From NCBI GenBank assembly GCA_028695495.1, contig JAQVIX010000010.1, forward strand, positions 1-44,300: 44,300 bases of DNA, read 5' to 3'. The first letter of the stretch is position 1; each line of letters opens with the position of its first letter. The position numbers were made by a program, and so were the translations under genes. The DNA is from Candidatus Cloacimonadota bacterium (GTDB lineage: Bacteria; Cloacimonadota; Cloacimonadia; Cloacimonadales; Cloacimonadaceae). Under the pieces are notes generated by a model, which was given only the letters and a program-made list of their open reading frames with translations, had not been told where the DNA came from and ran no database searches. This document shows positions 3,303 to 22,891 of this stretch, piece by piece.

Positions 3303-6300
3303 CTACTTCATTAGCATCATCTTGATGGTTTGGGCTTTGTTTTTGCCTTTTACGCGGGCAAAATAAACCCCGCTGGCTACTGCCCTACCCCTGGCATCTT
3401 TGCCATGCCATACCAGGTTTTGGGTGCCGGCGCCCAGCATGCCATCGTACAAATTGCATACCTTTTGCCCACGCAGATTGTAGATATCCACCTTCAGATT
3501 TTGGGCACTGGGATTGTGGAACATGATGGTAGTGCTGGGGTTGAAGGGATTCGGATATACCTTCAGTCCGCTAAAAACAGGTTGCACCACGTTTACGTTT
3601 GATACAGGATAGTTAAATACATCGATAAAACCGAAGTAGGTACCCGCTTCGCTGGGCTGGTAATGGTAAACGGCGGTATCGCTAATGTGCAAGGGTTCAC
3701 CATCCATTACAAAGCGCAATATCCAGTCGCTGGGCACGTTTTGCGTATCAAAGCTGAAATCTACCGGGCTATCATCCGGCACTTCGAGGGTAAAATGGAA
3801 GCGCATAAACTGCTCGCCAGAACCGCTGAAATCTGCCCGGTATTCTTCCTGCAATACGAAGATGGGGTTTCCTTCATCATCGAGGGGTTCCAGATAGCAG
3901 GCAATGCCGTCAAAAAGCTCTTTTTCCGGTGCTTTAGGCATGTCCACCCGGAAATCTATATTGTCGCTGCCCAGAGGGCTGGCACCAAAGCTAAAGCTAT
4001 CTTTATCTATTCCTTCCGCCGTCACTTTTACCGTCCAGTAAGGAGCAGGCGGGGTAATGGAAGGCGCTTCGTAATAGGGGAAGAAATTCAGCTCCAGATT
4101 CACCTCGGCGGGGGCATAGCTACAGATATAGAAGGATTCGTATGGCTGAATCTCATTTACCAGGTGATAGCTGCCTTCGCGATATACGTAAATGGCACGG
4201 GAAACAAGCTTTTGGTCTATTATTTCGCTGAACTTATAGGCCTTTCCGTTTACGAAATAACGCAGAGATTTGATGTCGTAAATGCAGAAGTGCGGATTTG
4301 CCACCAGGTTCCAACCAGGCTGTAATGGCAGGCTGATCTGGTCTCTCAATACACCCGCAGAGGTACTGGTAAATAGATAATCTGTACCATTGATAAAGAG
4401 CGGGGTATTGAAGGCAAAGTCGTTTTCTTCCAGCCATTGCTCTGCTTCCCAGGCATAGCCGAGAGCACCGCTGCCAAAGACTTCCTCAATACTAAGCCCC
4501 GCATTGGTATAAGGGTTGCTTACGGTAGCCCAGCCGGGATCGAAATAGAAGAGATTCGTTTTGGGTACCAGGGCAAGGGTGTGGGGAGAGGGATGAGTAT
4601 TTACCTGCCCGTCTGCGGCGTTTATCTGTATCATTACCTTGCTCTTGGGCATATCGATAACCTGCGGCAGGATATAGCTATAGGAGCTGATATTGGGGGG
4701 CACGTTTTCTAATATGCTCAAGGAATCAGTCTCGTTTTTTATATAAAGGCTAAAGTTATCAATCAGGAAGCTATTTTGGAAATTGAAGCCGAAGTGAATG
4801 GCTTCGCCGCCCTGATATACCCTGTTGTCCATAAGAACATGGCTTACCGCCGGCTGCAGGTTGCCCCAATATAACGTCATGGTGCGGATACTGCTGCTAT
4901 TTACGGAAAATTGGTAAGGGCTATCGTAAAGATCGTGCCAGGTGCCGCCATCGTAGATATAGAGCTTCTCGCTGCCACGCAGGTTTTGTCTATCGGCTTC
5001 AATCTGCAAAGGCAGGTTCAAGCGGTCGCTGCGCACACGCAAAGTCCAGGTTTTCATGCTGTTATCAACGTCGTATTCGGCTCGCATTTCGCGGGAGAGG
5101 GAGGTACCGTTATTGCCCCAATATGGCTGCCAGGAGGCTATCCAAACGTAGTTTGAGCCGGGGCTGCCTTTGGTGGTATCCCAGTAATCATCACGCTCGT
5201 CTGTAGCATAGCGGTTGCTGCCCAAAGTAAGGGTATCCGTATGCGAGCCGCTCACGGTGCTAAATATCAAATCCACCATGGGACCCAGGCAGGCTTTTTG
5301 CGGGTCATTGTGCACAAATTCAAAGCCGTCGTTGCGAATCATGCTAACGGTATAGGTGTATTGAACTCCGTCTTCCACCATAAAATCCCAATACTCATAA
5401 GAACCAGTGCCCGGAAGCAAGCTGGGGTCATCCAAATAGGAAGCGATTACCTCATAAGCGCCATTATCCGCACGGCGGTTGATATTATAGCCAGTTACCG
5501 TGGTACCCTGATTTGCCAAAGACCAGTGGATACGCACGCTGCCGGGCATTCCGTGGGCACTAAATGAAGAGATATTGGCAGGCGCAGGGGTGGTGGTTAC
5601 TTCGTTTGAAAAACCGGAGTAATTGCCATTCTTATCCAAAGCGCGGATTTTGAAATAGTAATTCTGATTGTTGCTCAAGCCTGTTACGTTGATTCTCTCA
5701 CAGGCTTGGGAGGCGAGCATGGCGTTATTTGCGCGGGTAAAGGTTTGGTAATTGTCCTCGGTAATCGGCTGGGTGGCATATTGGATTTCGTAGGTCTCAA
5801 AATCGTATGCGTCGCTGCGCTGCCAGCCGAGAGTAACGTAATACATGGAACTGTTTTTGATAGTAAGCTCTTCGGGTGTGGTGGGGGGAACGCCATCGTC
5901 CATGGCAAAGAGGTCGTCATAAAGCTCATTCAGGTCGTTGCGCCAACGGCTGTAATATGCCCGCACATTGGTAAAGAGATTATCAAAATCCCATTTGCCT
6001 TCCGCCTCGTTCCAGCCATAAAACCAATGATATACGTTTAGGGTTTCGTCATAAGCATTGGGAAGTTCGTCCATTTCAATATGGAAAAAAGGCTCGAAGC
6101 TATCGTAATCGTTCCAGCTGCTAAGGGTGTAAAGCATTTGATAGTTTTGTGAATAAGCCGGCAGGTCGATGGCGTCATTTACAGGATAGGAATGCTCGCC
6201 ATCGTCAAAGATAAAATCGTGAATGCTGTAATTTACCGAGTAATACTGGTTTAGATATACGTCTTCGTGTGTGCCGTAGGTATTGGCAGGGATCATCAAG

Positions 6301-7202
6301 TGATTTCCCTTGTGGATGAGGTCTTTTTTCAGGCTGCTGAGATCGCGGATGGGCAGGTTTGGGCACAGCTTGTTATTTCCCGCCGAAATCTGGTTATCCG
6401 TATAACCCACGTGGCGATCCCAGTCGTAAGAATGCACCTGGAAAGAAAACTCGCGCTTGCCCGTCTGCGAGCGGATGAGATCGGCAAAACGGGTGTAGGC
6501 AGAATTGAAAGGGTGGCTCGTAACACGGGTGGGGTCGGAAAGGGATTTTGTATTTGTATAACTACCAATGTTTGTCCATTTTACCTCGCGTCCGGTGCCG
6601 GAGATGAGCAAAAACATGGCATCCCATTCGTTGAAGCAATCGTAGCTTACTATGGGGGTGGGAAAGTCGTCATTCGGGTGCGGGGCGGTTACGATGATCG
6701 GGCGAGTGGCATCCGGGGAATATATGTATAAACCCCAAGCGTAATCGAAAGCGCCATCTTCATCATCGTAAGGGTCATCCGGCGTGCCATTATCATCATA
6801 ATAGCTCATATCCGGCAATTCACGCAACATGTAATAAGTGCGGTTATTATCCGTATTATGAAACTCCACTGCCTGATAAGGGAAGCCAGCTTGAGTAATC
6901 GCCGCTTGCGCCTGATCCAATTCGCCCAAAAGGAAGAGATCCACGATGTTTCCCCATTGATTTAGCTGGGAATTGGTGGGCGTGCGGTAATTGCCAAAAC
7001 CGTTGGTCTGGCGGTCGTAAGGTGCATAAAGGTTGTAATCCTGAATGGCGATGCCTTCCGCGATGTGGGAAATCCAATTGTCGTATTGACAAGCCGGTTC
7101 ACTGCCGATTAGAAACTTCTCCATGGAGCCGGTTTCTACAATATGCGCAGAAAGGCTAAATGCAATAAGCGCTATTGCAATATAGAGCAGGTATTTTTTC
7201 AT
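3303..7202 (-). CDS. large secreted multidomain protein: N-terminal hydrolase-like region, fibronectin III-like domain, FlgD-like sorting domain
   Basis: A 1299-residue exported protein. It has a signal peptide (about residues 1-18, MKKYLLYIAIALIAFSLSA). An N-terminal region of about 450 residues contains APHPNDDFPTP, ISGTGREV and FQVHSYDW, which resemble a metal-dependent hydrolase or amidohydrolase, but I cannot assign the family. Next comes a fibronectin type III-like segment (from about PPTTPEELTI to NEVTTTPAP), then further beta-rich sequence. A C-terminal sorting domain carries YPNPFNPSTTI, IYNLRGQKV, GKDARGRAVASGVYF and final MLMK. I chose the second of two adjacent ATGs (7202): AGGAG is 5 bases before it but only 2 bases before the first (7205). 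The terminator at 3241-3268 ends it. It is probably a monocistronic, surface-exposed or secreted enzyme. Confidence 0.75.
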   Translation of the reverse strand: MKKYLLYIAIALIAFSLSAHIVETGSMEKFLIGSEPACQYDNWISHIAEGIAIQDYNLYAPYDRQTNGFGNYRTPTNSQLNQWGNIVDLFLLGELDQAQAAITQAGFPYQAVEFHNTDNNRTYYMLRELPDMSYYDDNGTPDDPYDDEDGAFDYAWGLYIYSPDATRPIIVTAPHPNDDFPTPIVSYDCFNEWDAMFLLISGTGREVKWTNIGSYTNTKSLSDPTRVTSHPFNSAYTRFADLIRSQTGKREFSFQVHSYDWDRHVGYTDNQISAGNNKLCPNLPIRDLSSLKKDLIHKGNHLMIPANTYGTHEDVYLNQYYSVNYSIHDFIFDDGEHSYPVNDAIDLPAYSQNYQMLYTLSSWNDYDSFEPFFHIEMDELPNAYDETLNVYHWFYGWNEAEGKWDFDNLFTNVRAYYSRWRNDLNELYDDLFAMDDGVPPTTPEELTIKNSSMYYVTLGWQRSDAYDFETYEIQYATQPITEDNYQTFTRANNAMLASQACERINVTGLSNNQNYYFKIRALDKNGNYSGFSNEVTTTPAPANISSFSAHGMPGSVRIHWSLANQGTTVTGYNINRRADNGAYEVIASYLDDPSLLPGTGSYEYWDFMVEDGVQYTYTVSMIRNDGFEFVHNDPQKACLGPMVDLIFSTVSGSHTDTLTLGSNRYATDERDDYWDTTKGSPGSNYVWIASWQPYWGNNGTSLSREMRAEYDVDNSMKTWTLRVRSDRLNLPLQIEADRQNLRGSEKLYIYDGGTWHDLYDSPYQFSVNSSSIRTMTLYWGNLQPAVSHVLMDNRVYQGGEAIHFGFNFQNSFLIDNFSLYIKNETDSLSILENVPPNISSYSYILPQVIDMPKSKVMIQINAADGQVNTHPSPHTLALVPKTNLFYFDPGWATVSNPYTNAGLSIEEVFGSGALGYAWEAEQWLEENDFAFNTPLFINGTDYLFTSTSAGVLRDQISLPLQPGWNLVANPHFCIYDIKSLRYFVNGKAYKFSEIIDQKLVSRAIYVYREGSYHLVNEIQPYESFYICSYAPAEVNLELNFFPYYEAPSITPPAPYWTVKVTAEGIDKDSFSFGASPLGSDNIDFRVDMPKAPEKELFDGIACYLEPLDDEGNPIFVLQEEYRADFSGSGEQFMRFHFTLEVPDDSPVDFSFDTQNVPSDWILRFVMDGEPLHISDTAVYHYQPSEAGTYFGFIDVFNYPVSNVNVVQPVFSGLKVYPNPFNPSTTIMFHNPSAQNLKVDIYNLRGQKVCNLYDGMLGAGTQNLVWHGKDARGRAVASGVYFARVKGKNKAQTIKMMLMK

Positions 7203-15974: not shown

Positions 15975-17636
15975 ATGAAACGCCTTCTTATCCTTATAGC
16001 CCTGTGCATAGTTATCCCGCTGGCTGCCGATAACTGGAATCTATTTGTATATATGGCAGCGGATAACAACCTCAGTTTCAATGCCAAACGGCAGATTAAC
16101 GAAATGGAGGCGGTAGCCCAAGCTGCCGGGCTGAATATCATCCTACAGGCAGATTTCCCCGAAGGCGCTAAACGCTACCAGATAAAGCAAGACTATTTTC
16201 CTAACATGATCACTTCCCTCGTGCTGCAAAACATGGGCTATATTGATAGCGGCAATTGGCAAAACCTGCAGGATTTTCTGAAATGGGGACGCAAGAAATA
16301 CCCCGCCCAGCGCAATATGCTGGTGATCTGGGGGCACGGCAATAGCTGGTTCAAAGAAGGCGAGAAATGGGTAGCTACAGATAATAGCTCTGGCAATGCT
16401 ATCGGTGTGGCAAATAAAGATTTACAGAATGCGCTAAGCGACACCGGACATTGGGACATCCTGCTTTTTGACGCTTGCAGCATGCAAAGCCTGGAAGTGC
16501 TTAGCGAAGTGAAAGACTATTGCAGCTACGTAATCGGCTCCGAAGACCTACTCCCCGCCAGCGGCTTCCCCTACGGCAGCATCATCCCCATTTTGAATCA
16601 AAATCCGGCACAAATCGCCGCCCAAATCCCTCCGCTATTTCGCGAAAGCTACCTCCCCGGCGGGATTTACAACCCCTATACCGGCTATCTTCCCACCACC
16701 TGCTCCAGCATCGCCATGGCAGATTTTCCAGCATTTATAAACCACTGGAAGGTGTTTTGCCGCAGCCTGCGCAGCGATCTCGATAGTCTTTTGGGACTGC
16801 GCAAAAAGCTCTTTGAGATGAACGACGGCTTGGCAGATATCGATATGCGGCAGTTTTTGCTGGCGTGCACAGATGCCGGTTTTGCCGGTGCAAATGAGAT
16901 GCTAAATCATTGGAATAGCATGGTAGTAGCCTCTACTTTCACTAGCCAGGAAGATCTGCAAAATATCGGCACTGCTGCCCTTTGGTTTCCCACTCTCCGC
17001 TCGGCTTACGACACCATGTATTTCAAATATCTCTGGCTGGATTTTTGCACCACCGGCTGGCTGGGTACCTTAAAACGCATCTTTGAAGATGAGCGCCTGC
17101 CCCATCAGCCAATGCCTACAAACATTCGGGTCTGGGGAGATAAGATAATGGTAGATTTGCAAATAGGGCGCCATGCGGATTCTTTGTATTGCCGGGTGGA
17201 TATTGGCGATAAAGAATACTATTTCTACCCTGAAGCCTATAAAACTTCGTTTAGCATCGTCTTACCCTTGCCAAGCCCGTATTCATACGTCTATTTCCGC
17301 AGTTTCGACGAAGCAGGCAATTCCCCTCACTCTTACGCGATTTTGCCTTACGATTACCATCCGCAGCCCCTAAATCTAAGGGTTTTCCCCAATCCCAGCC
17401 GCCAAGGCATCGCAGCCAAAGCCCTGTGGCACAGTGGAGAACAACCTCAATGCGTTGTAGAAGTGTATAACCTCAAAGGTCAGCTTATTTTCAAAGAAAA
17501 AGCACCACAGGCACTCCCCTCCGGAATCCTGGAACTATATAGCCTGGATGGCTTTAAACGCCTGGACAAAGGTAAATATCTCTTGCGGATAGATTTGGGC
17601 AAAAAGAAGCTGCAAGCCAAATTCTCAATTTTATGA
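15975..17636 (+). CDS. secreted clostripain-family (C11) cysteine peptidase with C-terminal sorting domain
   Basis: A 553-residue exported protease. It has a signal peptide (about 1-18) and a C11 catalytic domain with the His in VIWGHGNSW (H121) and the nucleophile Cys in LLFDACSM (C168). This caspase-like clan usually cleaves after basic residues. The last 85 residues look like a diverged FlgD-like sorting domain (LRVFPNPS, VEVYNLKGQLIF, GKYLLRI), suggesting export to the cell surface. GGAG lies 5 bases before the ATG, and the butyrate kinase terminator lies directly upstream. It probably degrades extracellular protein, which fits an amino-acid fermenter (inference). Confidence 0.88.
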   Translation: MKRLLILIALCIVIPLAADNWNLFVYMAADNNLSFNAKRQINEMEAVAQAAGLNIILQADFPEGAKRYQIKQDYFPNMITSLVLQNMGYIDSGNWQNLQDFLKWGRKKYPAQRNMLVIWGHGNSWFKEGEKWVATDNSSGNAIGVANKDLQNALSDTGHWDILLFDACSMQSLEVLSEVKDYCSYVIGSEDLLPASGFPYGSIIPILNQNPAQIAAQIPPLFRESYLPGGIYNPYTGYLPTTCSSIAMADFPAFINHWKVFCRSLRSDLDSLLGLRKKLFEMNDGLADIDMRQFLLACTDAGFAGANEMLNHWNSMVVASTFTSQEDLQNIGTAALWFPTLRSAYDTMYFKYLWLDFCTTGWLGTLKRIFEDERLPHQPMPTNIRVWGDKIMVDLQIGRHADSLYCRVDIGDKEYYFYPEAYKTSFSIVLPLPSPYSYVYFRSFDEAGNSPHSYAILPYDYHPQPLNLRVFPNPSRQGIAAKALWHSGEQPQCVVEVYNLKGQLIFKEKAPQALPSGILELYSLDGFKRLDKGKYLLRIDLGKKKLQAKFSIL

Positions 17637-17657: not shown

Positions 17658-17765
17658 TGTGGATAAGATGTGGATAACTAAAACCCAGATTTTTAACCGG
17701 ATGACTATCCTATTCAATTTAATGCACTTAACTCCGCTTACTTATCCACAGCTTTTTGTGGATAA
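17658..17765. other. cluster of four perfect DnaA boxes; candidate replication origin or DnaA-binding locus
   Basis: The intergenic stretch 17637-17797 contains four exact copies of the DnaA box TTATCCACA. Two are tandem on the minus strand (17658-17666 and 17669-17677, 11 bases apart). One is on the plus strand (17742-17750) and one on the minus strand (17757-17765). The last two form a 9-bp hairpin with a 6-base loop. Between them lies moderately AT-rich sequence that could unwind. The flanking genes (protease, RNA methyltransferase) are not the classic dnaA/dnaN/gidA neighbours, and gene strand bias does not switch here. A DnaA-titration or DnaA-regulated promoter role is the alternative. 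Confidence 0.55.
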
Positions 17766-17797
17766 CTGCATATCCGGCTGATATTCAAGGAACTAAA

Positions 17798-18556
17798 ATG
17801 GCAAATCCAAGCATAGTCATCTCCAAAACCAAGCTAAGTAATCTGGCAAAACTAAAACAGAAGAAATACCGCAATAGCGAAAAACGGCTCATCCTCGAAG
17901 GACCTAGATTGATGCAGCAGCTTGCCCAATATCAGGTTTTTCCTCTTGAGCTGTATTACACGGTATGGCAAGATTTCTTAAGCTCTTTTACCTGTCCCCT
18001 ATATCAGGTGCAAGAGCGTGATATGCTTCGCCTTACGGATACCGATAGTGCTCCGCAAATCGCCGGACTCTACCCCTTGCCTTCCATGCACCAAAAGCCT
18101 TTTCAACGTGCCTTATACCTTGATGGCGTAAAGGATCCCGGCAATATGGGCACCATCTTCCGCCTTGCCGCCGCCTTTGATATTCAGCAAATCCTGCTTT
18201 CGCCGGATTGTTGCGAAGTAAATAATCCCAAAGTGATCCGCGCTTCCTTGGGAGCGGTGTATCAGGTGCCATTTACCGTGGTGGCTTACGAAGATTTATT
18301 TAAGATGCCGGCTGCCAAAATCTCACTTGATATGCAAGGCGCCACCCCCTTAAAAGAGTTCCGCCCGCCGGAAATCCCGGCAATTTACATCCTGGGCGGC
18401 GAAGCAAACGGCATCGGCGACGAGCTTCTCAATGCTTCAGAATTGCGCCTGAAAATCGAGATGGCAGAGGGCATGGAATCGCTGAATGTGGGGGTAGCGT
18501 GTGGGATATTGTGCCATTATTTGTATGTAAACAAATGTTTTATTTCAAATCCTTGA
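17798..18556 (+). CDS. TrmH-family (SpoU) RNA 2'-O-methyltransferase
   Basis: A 252-residue SPOUT methyltransferase using S-adenosylmethionine to methylate rRNA or tRNA ribose. All three family motifs are present: motif 1 LDGVKDPGNMGTIFR (N116, R122), motif 2 YILGGEANGIG (about 197-207) and motif 3 IEMAEGMESLNVGVACGI (about 220-237), which forms the knot. The N-terminal 90 residues match a SpoU substrate-binding domain. I start at ATG 17798, which has AAGGA 6 bases upstream; an upstream GTG (17756) falls inside the DnaA-box cluster. Its last 17 bases overlap the end of the convergent RloB-like gene. Confidence 0.88.
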   Translation: MANPSIVISKTKLSNLAKLKQKKYRNSEKRLILEGPRLMQQLAQYQVFPLELYYTVWQDFLSSFTCPLYQVQERDMLRLTDTDSAPQIAGLYPLPSMHQKPFQRALYLDGVKDPGNMGTIFRLAAAFDIQQILLSPDCCEVNNPKVIRASLGAVYQVPFTVVAYEDLFKMPAAKISLDMQGATPLKEFRPPEIPAIYILGGEANGIGDELLNASELRLKIEMAEGMESLNVGVACGILCHYLYVNKCFISNP

Positions 18557-19172
18557 GAGTTTTGTAAAGTTCGTTGATCTGCGAGTAGGAAAAGTGTTCG
18601 TTTGCTGCTCTTGGTTTGCTGTTCAGATCAGCCGCATTTCTCAAAGCAATTTCAAGCTTGGGCGATAGCAGATCATACAGTTTTCTTGCATAATCCTCAG
18701 TTTTCTCATAGTCTTTAAGGTACTTTTGAAGCTGTTTTTCTGCTGCTTCGCATTTACTTAAAAGACCATCTGTTTTAAGGAAATGCAGCAAAAACCAAAA
18801 CTCTATGCAGGGGCGAGATTCGATGATGTATAAACGCCCTTGTGCATTTTTGTGCTTTAGTAGTCTATCTTTTCGTTTATTATAATCATCTATCTTATTC
18901 TGAGCGTAGCAAGTATCCATATCTTTTACATAAAAGATTAAGTCATAAGGCATTGCATCCACGCTCAGATCCAGATCGTTTTTGATCCTTTCAAACACTT
19001 TTTCGTAAGCATCACTATGCCCGTGCTTTGGCTCAATCCGAAATCTATTATTCTTACCCTTATTTAGCTGCATTTTGATGCTATCTAAATAGTAGCGTTC
19101 GGTTGTGCCGTCACAGATGACCAGAATAGTTTTAGCTAATTTTTTAGCGTTGTGTTTTCTTTTTATGTGCAT
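18540..19172 (-). CDS. rloB: RloB-like protein, putative TOPRIM-fold nuclease
   Basis: A 210-residue protein. The start ILVICDGTTERYYLDSI places a conserved glutamate (E25) after a hydrophobic strand. A later D-x-D motif (FYVKDMDT, D84/D86) and RPCIEFWFLLHF (about 120-131) follow. This is the pattern of the RloB family, whose core resembles TOPRIM nuclease domains. It lies 12 bases downstream of an ATPase gene of the RloA/OLD-like type, and its ribosome binding site (AAGGGG) overlaps that gene's stop codon. Such ATPase-TOPRIM pairs are typical of phage defence modules. Direct evidence of nuclease activity is not in the sequence. Confidence 0.8.
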   Translation of the reverse strand: MHIKRKHNAKKLAKTILVICDGTTERYYLDSIKMQLNKGKNNRFRIEPKHGHSDAYEKVFERIKNDLDLSVDAMPYDLIFYVKDMDTCYAQNKIDDYNKRKDRLLKHKNAQGRLYIIESRPCIEFWFLLHFLKTDGLLSKCEAAEKQLQKYLKDYEKTEDYARKLYDLLSPKLEIALRNAADLNSKPRAANEHFSYSQINELYKTLKDLK

Positions 19173-19184
19173 CTTTATCGCCCC

Positions 19185-20435
19185 TTAAACTACACCAACA
19201 TCGGGCTTTCCGCCAATCTGACCTTTCATAAAGAGTTTATCAAGAGCGTGTTCTTTGCGTACAGGATAATCTGACACATTAGTGAGTTCGGTGCTTCCAT
19301 CTGGTAAACGGTCTGTGATGAAAACCGTATCGCGGCGGAGTAAATGTTTTTGATTTAATAATGTGACATTATGGGAAGTAAAGATCAATTGGCTTTCTTT
19401 GGAGTGTTTAAAGAATAGCAATATAAATAGTTCCAGAAGATCAATGTGTAAGGAATTATCTATCTCATCTATAGAAATTATAGTATTCATTTTTAAGGTC
19501 GCCTGCAACTGAATAGAAAGAGCAAAGAATCGTTGAGTGCCCATCGATTCATCGAATGCATTAAGAATGAAATCTCCATCCTCAACCTCGTGCAGAAAGC
19601 TCATTCTTTTAGCATGAGTATTCGCTCCTTTTTTAATCTCATCAAAATCGGCTATAAATAGATGTTTCAAAGAATCAGGAACGTGACTGAAAAGGACGAT
19701 AAGCTCCTCAAATATGATGTCTCTTATATGAAAATCAGCCATTTGCAATATGGATAAATAGAAATCTTTGTTCTTCTGAATATTTCCATAATTCGCTGAA
19801 TAGTATTTGTTCAAAGCAGTGCCAGGAGTAAATATTGGCAATTGAGTAAGCCTAAACCACTCATGAGCCTTCTGTATCGCGCCATGGTCTTCAACACCGC
19901 TGATAGCAGCCAAAATAGCTTGATTCCCGATCACTATTTGAAGGTTTTCTCTCAAGACTTTTTTATAGCTTTTATCCGTCCATTTATAGCGATATCGATC
20001 TATGGCTGGATCGTATTGCCGGTGAAAAACGTTTGCTTTGAAGCCTTTGGGATAGTGCGACAAAGATTCTTTCAGGATTCTGTCATTATTTAATACCAAT
20101 TCATATACATAGCAGACGCCCTGATGATAAAACTCAATTTCAAAACTACTGTTTTTATCCGTATCTAAGGCAAACGGCGATAAACCAATCGGATTATTTT
20201 TATTGGTTTGCGGGGATACTACCAGGTTTCTCAGGAAGTCCAAGGCTAAGAGTATATTCGTTTTTCCCGAAGCATTGGCACCATAGATCATCGCCATTTT
20301 TAGGATTCGCAGCTTGGGTTTGGGAATCTCCATTACCAGGTGCTCTTCCAGGTGCGTATCGCTGGTAGCGCGAAAATCCAGGCAAATCTTATTGCGGATG
20401 GAGCGGAAGTTTTCCACACTAAAAGATATAATCAT
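19185..20435 (-). CDS. rloA: RloA-like AAA/SMC-type ATPase
   Basis: A 416-residue ATPase of the AAA_15/AAA_21 (OLD/RecF-like) group. It has the N-terminal motif SVENFRSI, Walker A GANASGKT (residues 52-59), Walker B IISIDEIDNSLH (about 318-329, D323/E324) and a switch-like FTSHNVTLLN. There is no TOPRIM domain in this protein; it is supplied by the downstream RloB-like partner. The start codon has AAGGAG 5 bases upstream, and a promoter lies at 20501-20474. The pair is isolated between a convergent housekeeping gene and 1 kb of repeats, which suits a mobile defence cassette. Confidence 0.82.
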   Translation of the reverse strand: MIISFSVENFRSIRNKICLDFRATSDTHLEEHLVMEIPKPKLRILKMAMIYGANASGKTNILLALDFLRNLVVSPQTNKNNPIGLSPFALDTDKNSSFEIEFYHQGVCYVYELVLNNDRILKESLSHYPKGFKANVFHRQYDPAIDRYRYKWTDKSYKKVLRENLQIVIGNQAILAAISGVEDHGAIQKAHEWFRLTQLPIFTPGTALNKYYSANYGNIQKNKDFYLSILQMADFHIRDIIFEELIVLFSHVPDSLKHLFIADFDEIKKGANTHAKRMSFLHEVEDGDFILNAFDESMGTQRFFALSIQLQATLKMNTIISIDEIDNSLHIDLLELFILLFFKHSKESQLIFTSHNVTLLNQKHLLRRDTVFITDRLPDGSTELTNVSDYPVRKEHALDKLFMKGQIGGKPDVGVV

Positions 20436-21454: not shown

Positions 21455-22891
21455 ATGAACAAAGATTTTTTGCGTCCGCTCTTGATTGTAGCAGCTGCCG
21501 CCATCTTGGTGGGACTCATTGCGCTCATCATCCCAGCTTGGGAAAATGACTTCTTTCCGATCCGGAAAATGCCTTGGTTTTCGGCGTTAAAACCGGACGC
21601 AGCTGCCGCTACGGACACTCTGCAACAGGATATTGAGAAGCTGGAACACGCCACCACGGCGCTTTCGCCTTTCTTGCAAAAGATGGCGGGGCTGCCCGTT
21701 TTGGAAGGCAAAGAGGGCTTGATCTCCCTTCGCCGCAGCCGCCATACCCAGAAATTGCGCATTGCCTATTATAGCGATTCCACCATTGAGGGCGATCTCA
21801 TTACCGCATATCTAAGGCATGAATTGCAAAGCGTTTACGGCGGCAAAGGCGTGGGCATGATGCCGATTACCTCCATTGTAGCTGGCTTTCGGCAAACCAT
21901 ACGCCACACTTTCTCCAAAAATTGGGAAAGCATCTCTTTTATGACTCCCGGACAAAGCGAGCTATCCCTTGGTATTACAGGCTTTTGCTTTATCCCCCGC
22001 CCTTACTACTATACGCAAAGCAAGGTGGAAGAGGAAGTAGCCGTAGATAGCCTGGGCTTTATCGACAGCCTGCGCGTGGCGGAAGCTAACTATAAGCAAA
22101 CAAAGCTCTTTGTAGATTACGACCCCTGGGTGGAATACAAAGCGGTGGATATCGCCGGTGGAGCGGGCTTTTTTGAAAGTATCCGGCTCTATTACAGCCA
22201 TGCGGGGGAGGATTCCAAGGTGTATGTAGCTTACGATGGTGGGCAACGCCGCAGCTTTTGGCTAAATGCCGGTGAGAACTTACAAACCTTGGATCTCAGC
22301 GCCGGTAGTCCCATTAAAAGCATCAAACTGGAATTTCCCAGCAAGGATCCCTTGCACGTATATGGCGTTTCTTTTGATGAAGCGCGCGGCGTGTATGTGG
22401 ATAACTACCCCATCCGCGGCTTCTCTGGTATGTTTTTCAGTCGTATCCATAGCGGCATCCTTGGCGAATTTCAAAAGCGATTAAAATACGATTTGTTAGT
22501 TTTACAATACGGCGAAAACGTTTCCAATAAAAACACGCGGGATTACACTTATTACCGAAAAGCCATGCAACGCACCATTGAACACATCCAGAGCGCCATG
22601 CCGGATACGCCCATTCTCTTGATAAGCGCGCACGATCGCAGCATCAAGGACGCTGGCGGCTACCGCACTTCGCCGGATATCCCCATCCTGGTAAAAGCGC
22701 AGGCAGACCTGGCAAACGACACCAATAGTGCCTTTTTCAACCTCTTTGAAGCGATGGGCGGATATAACTCCATGATTGGCTATGTGAATCAAAAACCGGC
22801 GCTGGCAAATACGGATTACACCCATTTTACGCGCCGCGGGGCAGACAGGGTGGCGCAAATGCTTTTGGACTATTTGGCGGAGGCAGATTGA
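21455..22891 (+). CDS. membrane-anchored SGNH-hydrolase-fold protein (acyl transfer)
   Basis: A 478-residue protein with one N-terminal transmembrane anchor (about residues 9-29), so the main domain should be outside the cytoplasmic membrane. It has SGNH/GDSL signatures: IAYYSDSTIEGD with nucleophile S109, and D-x-x-H in NTDYTHFTRRG (D454/H457). YGEN is a possible block III. It heads a coupled run with a second SGNH protein and an MBOAT protein. By analogy with alginate, cellulose or peptidoglycan O-acetylation, it probably transfers an acyl group to an extracytoplasmic glycan. CGGGAG lies only 2 bases before ATG, but the anchor supports this start. It overlaps the next gene by 4 bases. Confidence 0.75.
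   Translation: MNKDFLRPLLIVAAAAILVGLIALIIPAWENDFFPIRKMPWFSALKPDAAAATDTLQQDIEKLEHATTALSPFLQKMAGLPVLEGKEGLISLRRSRHTQKLRIAYYSDSTIEGDLITAYLRHELQSVYGGKGVGMMPITSIVAGFRQTIRHTFSKNWESISFMTPGQSELSLGITGFCFIPRPYYYTQSKVEEEVAVDSLGFIDSLRVAEANYKQTKLFVDYDPWVEYKAVDIAGGAGFFESIRLYYSHAGEDSKVYVAYDGGQRRSFWLNAGENLQTLDLSAGSPIKSIKLEFPSKDPLHVYGVSFDEARGVYVDNYPIRGFSGMFFSRIHSGILGEFQKRLKYDLLVLQYGENVSNKNTRDYTYYRKAMQRTIEHIQSAMPDTPILLISAHDRSIKDAGGYRTSPDIPILVKAQADLANDTNSAFFNLFEAMGGYNSMIGYVNQKPALANTDYTHFTRRGADRVAQMLLDYLAEAD

Follow-up and report, generated by a model that had tools for sequence, protein, structure and literature searches.

The window, a 44,300-nucleotide stretch of a Candidatus Cloacimonadota genome, contains a gene for a clostripain-family peptidase (pepC11) followed on the same strand by a gene for a SpoU-family RNA methyltransferase. 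The 161-bp gap between the two is occupied by an array of four perfect DnaA boxes, each an exact copy of TTATCCACA found by word search of the window: a tandem pair, a spacer of nearly fixed length, and two boxes facing each other that match boxes I and II of the Escherichia coli DARS elements (Table 1). The preliminary description of this DNA had reported four exact boxes at these positions, a tandem pair with an 11-bp register followed by an inverted pair, and their location between the genes, all of which we recovered. The single further copy that it placed near 22395 begins at 22396 on the minus strand, inside an ORF. The closest named relatives of the SpoU methylase are in Candidatus Cloacimonadota genomes. 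Beyond it, and convergent with it, genes for an RloB-like protein and an AAA_21 ATPase (18540–20435, minus strand) resemble a restriction- or defence-associated pair.

Table 1. Genes and DnaA-box features at the array locus, in window coordinates
Feature	Position	Strand	Basis
pepC11, clostripain-family (C11) peptidase with T9SS-type C-terminal sorting domain	15975..17636	+	Pfam PF03415 E=6e-38; TIGR04183
DnaA box A1, perfect, first of tandem pair	17658..17666	-	Word search; conserved in family loci
DnaA box A2, perfect, 11-bp register from A1	17669..17677	-	Word search; conserved
64-bp spacer, length nearly fixed, sequence diverged among relatives	17678..17741	.	A2-to-II distance in 39 family loci
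DnaA box matching DARS box I, perfect	17742..17750	+	Word search; DARS comparison
DnaA box matching DARS box II, perfect; 15 bp from box I, 88 bp from A2	17757..17765	-	Word search; DARS comparison
Position of weak box III (TGTAGATAA-like) in many relatives; window genome reads CATATCCGG, unrecognisable	17769..17777	-	Family comparison
SpoU-family RNA 2'-O-methyltransferase	17798..18556	+	PF00588 E=7e-28

The four-box array is genuine and lies far beyond chance. The window's genome (2.72 Mb) holds 79 exact copies of TTATCCACA versus 19 of the reversed control word, and even at this enriched density four boxes within 108 bp are expected only about 1e-7 times per genome. Matches with at most one mismatch number 24 in the window, compared with 9.2 ± 3.2 in shuffles.

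The array is also strongly conserved. We compared it across a phylum set of 125 genomes, using working labels for families and genera in which f1 denotes the window's family. All 39 readable f1 loci carry a tandem pair in 11-bp register, with a third box in the same direction 86–89 bp from the second, and the spacer between the tandem pair and the third box is largely unalignable among them. Selection on the array acts on spacing, not on the sequence of the spacer. When relatives of the SpoU gene were compared, f1 members had boxes in the same gap and the SpoU genes of other families had none. Across the 125 genomes, the tandem word TGTGGATAA-NN-TGTGGATAA fell in f1 either at dnaA or in the array gap wherever this was checked, with one genome (G016) not assignable; two tandem pairs outside f1 (L186 and L187) are not located at the pepC11 site.

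Beyond f1, the peptidase rather than the methylase marks the site. In most relatives the array is preceded by a pepC11 homologue, the anchor gene, while SpoU is the downstream neighbor in the window's family only. In family f9 the boxes follow the peptidase with HisS or NadC as the next gene, and thus the peptidase is the wider anchor. We fetched the region downstream of pepC11 at 40 more places and looked for two same-direction boxes 11 bp apart with a third at 84–90 bp. Among 41 loci with enough sequence, 23 matched with 0–5 mismatches over 27 positions, all with the third box at 85–88 bp, while the reversed-word control never fell below 9 mismatches (mean 10.7). These 23 loci span six further families (f4, f6, f7, f9, f10, and f13). 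The gene beyond the array varies: on the same strand it may be SpoU, HisS, NadC, Pgk, or an ABC-F ATPase, and convergent neighbors include an FAD oxidoreductase (f13) and an epimerase (G092). The array is thus kept at a fixed place across the phylum Cloacimonadota, independent of the downstream gene. A second peptidase copy in G091 has no array.

The preliminary description had raised the possibility that the array is the chromosome origin, with a DnaA-titration or regulatory locus as the alternative. An origin, whether the main one or a secondary one, would account for perfect boxes in a compact cluster and for the resemblance of the tandem pair to the pair upstream of dnaA; the 9-mer is identical at the two places, and an 11-bp tandem pair also occurs upstream of dnaA in the window's family. 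However, the dnaA locus holds more boxes and differs in design. In the window's genome dnaA lies on a separate contig, C95, where six perfect boxes surround it, at 5287−, 5377+, and 5402− on one side and at 6857+, 6970+, and 6981+ on the other, so the array is not the strongest cluster of the genome. At dnaA, the tandem pair and the third same-direction box usually lie 111–116 bp apart, and 25 bp is the spacing of the perfect inverted pair. In a single-contig relative (G020; 2,246,820 bp), whose sequence begins at dnaA and has seven perfect boxes around that gene, the array lies at 447,171–447,277, that is, 447 kb from dnaA. The window's own genome is in 155 contigs, and skew was tested on G020, over 40 stretches of 20 kb covering 36% of the chromosome. 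Raw GC skew was weak; it placed the best origin at 2.03–2.25 Mb, by dnaA, with a change-point fit that was not significant (71 of 500 permutations were as good). A third-codon-position test corrected for gene direction was then applied. With the origin at dnaA it gave a leading-strand effect of 0.031 (block-permutation p = 0.003), and the scan maximum lay 20–80 kb from dnaA; with the origin at the array the effect was 0.0001 (p = 0.54), and this relative has no skew switch there. The array is therefore not where replication starts, its position being established in one complete relative, and we rejected the chromosome origin as a candidate; an origin of either kind is very improbable. The preliminary description had named, as findings that would count against it, a skew minimum and a stronger box cluster elsewhere, for example beside dnaA, and a lack of conservation in relatives. 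As to the former, a stronger box cluster surrounds dnaA, and skew in the single-contig relative favors dnaA; the latter was not found, since the phylum keeps the boxes in this gap. It is thus the regulatory half of that interpretation that the data support. In this family the dnaA locus, too, has a pronounced box pattern (C95, L001: 5287–6989; L085–L106), with the tandem pair and a box usually 111–116 bp on, ∼35 bp before dnaA, in the upstream part, and the 25-bp inverted pair with further boxes downstream.

Box arrays outside oriC are DnaA-control loci, such as datA and DARS, or sinks. A datA-like site or sink would bind DnaA after its own replication and lower DnaA-ATP, either by titration or by ATP hydrolysis on looped DNA. 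In both the array and E. coli datA, boxes surround a spacer of constrained length, with boxes 2 and 3 of datA lying on either side of an IHF site (PMC4585315), and both loci are just downstream of a transcription unit (PMC10950094). Moreover, what all families have in common at the pepC11 site is the tandem pair with its third box at a fixed distance, not the head-to-head pair. Nevertheless, the box order and spacing of datA differ from those of the array, four boxes among 79 exact copies in the genome contribute little to pure titration, and titration alone leaves the exact spacing unexplained. We regard this explanation as unlikely. It is quite improbable that the array serves as a SpoU promoter or operator under DnaA control, or that DnaA bound there is a roadblock to transcription running out of pepC11. 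Box II ends 31–44 bp before the SpoU start in most of f1, so that binding there could affect SpoU transcription, and a promoter role may exist in this family. However, that distance reaches 195 bp in G041, another gene intervenes between array and SpoU in genus g4, and a search of the gap for a sigma-70-like promoter was negative. Because the gene beyond the array changes and is sometimes convergent, the array is not simply a promoter: no conserved relation to one downstream gene was seen, and a SpoU promoter was rejected as the conserved function, which it cannot be when the array persists beside unrelated neighbors.

DARS is the likelier comparison. In the script used for the array, E. coli DARS1 shows box I on the plus strand, box II on the minus strand 14 bp on, and box III on the minus strand 12 bp past box II; both distances are identical in DARS2. 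The head-to-head arrangement of boxes I and II is the characteristic and essential hallmark of DARS (PMC10380432, PMC8682772), and in DARS2 these two boxes are crucial while box III is required for full activity (PMC4585315). In f1, boxes I and II are 14 bp apart in most loci outside the window's genus and 15 bp apart in all 11 loci of that genus; the pair is absent from the two SpoU-linked arrays of g8, and that of G012 is not at 14 bp. A same-direction box III (typically TGTAGATAA or CGTAGATAA) stands 12 bp after box II with at most two mismatches in 23 of the 39 f1 loci, while every other offset from 9 to 25 yields 0 or 1 locus. Like the DARS elements, the array occupies a non-origin position, and it is intergenic in the window's family. 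It differs from them in gene context, in its additional tandem pair at a fixed 86–89 bp, and, in the window copy, in the 15-bp spacing and a box III that is unrecognisable (8 mismatches; 6 in G020). Because of this spacing, the missing box III, and an activity that is putative, we do not file the array as a DARS by strict membership.

The head-to-head pair can be followed through the phylum on its own. The word TTATCCAC-N6-TGTGGATAA, allowing one mismatch, was found in 74 of the 125 genomes, of which 68 have a single copy and 6 have two; matches to the control word were close to zero. Most of the order has about one pair per genome. At this threshold the 14-bp pair was not found in the other 51 genomes, which include all of f12 and f13 as well as the window's genus, the latter because its spacing is 15 bp. 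In a scan of gaps from 1 to 31 bases, the recurrent exact spacings among the matches listed were 14 bp, 15 bp (in the genus of the window), and 25 bp; most of the listed 25-bp cases lie at the dnaA locus. In f1 the 14-bp pair sits in the peptidase–SpoU gap, and at three loci (G048:C13:12331, G049:C71:17865, and G051:C39:28531) a head-to-head pair lies behind another peptidase C11 homologue. The SpoU-linked array of G049 is without an opposing box, which has been lost.

In other families the 14-bp pair is missing from the pepC11 site. It is found at other places, as a rule within a coding gene, and mostly has no box III. In most of these families it falls within the gene of an ∼800-residue lamin-tail-domain protein, where it encodes NLSTxxVDN (L239–L258, L259–L268); in one f4 genome (G026) it adjoins dnaA. 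The codons of this peptide are strikingly uniform, with TCC for Ser and GTG for Val almost invariant versus 14% and 21% elsewhere in the same genes, in a sample that includes 20 loci picked by DNA word and is hence biased. In six loci picked by protein similarity, TCC was used in five and GTG in all six. Many f9 lamin-tail genes also have a tandem 11-bp pair 298–309 bp past box II. Among the lamin-tail homologues, those that we retrieved in f1 and f13, and the one in G028, do not have the motif. In the lamin-tail gene of f10 (L264 and L266), a tandem pair with a box 132 bp on replaces the head-to-head pair.

Taken together, the geometry suggests that the array controls DnaA at a site away from the origin and, in the window's family, most likely does so in the manner of DARS, a reading to which we assign roughly even probability. 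It may be a distant version of the DnaA-recharging DARS switch of E. coli. From the sequence comparisons we infer DnaA binding at the array, DNA bending, ADP release, and an effect on initiation. In such a scheme, DnaA-ADP would bind head-to-head at boxes I and II, aided by box III where present, and would there lose its ADP, be released, and rebind ATP. The tandem pair ∼88 bp away would assemble or regulate the complex, and the intervening DNA would be bent or form a loop, perhaps through the action of an HU-type protein. The DnaA of the window's genome is a canonical one and carries RKDHTTVLHA as a C-terminal segment. The search for DNA-bending proteins yielded one HU-family gene and no dedicated IHF, and the window's genome has no Hda-type protein above the family cut-off. 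More broadly, and with a probability that we place a little short of even, the phylum may possess a DARS-type reactivation element outside Proteobacteria. Cloacimonadota would then typically carry one pair of DARS geometry, which has moved among the intergenic site, the side of a second peptidase, and the interior of a coding gene, its internal spacing hardly changing.

In E. coli and its relatives, specific loci are known to switch DnaA between the ATP and ADP forms. The literature consulted describes DARS-like sequences from Proteobacteria and the core of DARS2 from gamma-proteobacteria (PMC10380432, PMC4245941). A literature search for Cloacimonadota together with DnaA box, incomplete in its coverage, returned no report, and searches on box clusters in Bacillus, Streptomyces, and Caulobacter yielded reviews but nothing on Cloacimonadota. 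If the array is DARS-like in this phylum, which is dominated by uncultured members, either this form of control dates back much further than has been assumed or its geometry evolved twice. Both possibilities are open to direct testing, using DnaA and short pieces of DNA.

Finally, the box word has a wider distribution in these genomes. It is approximately four times commoner than its reversed control in the window's genome, mostly as isolated copies, and G020 has 53 copies versus 20. The window's genome has another place with two boxes, at C29:38606 and 38678; this one falls within an ABC-transporter permease-like ORF and looks ordinary. In G034, a near-identical short inverted word, TTATCCACAAATTGTGGATAA, recurs at C72:209, C174:335, C322:19876, and C359:5009, and is possibly a dispersed repeat.
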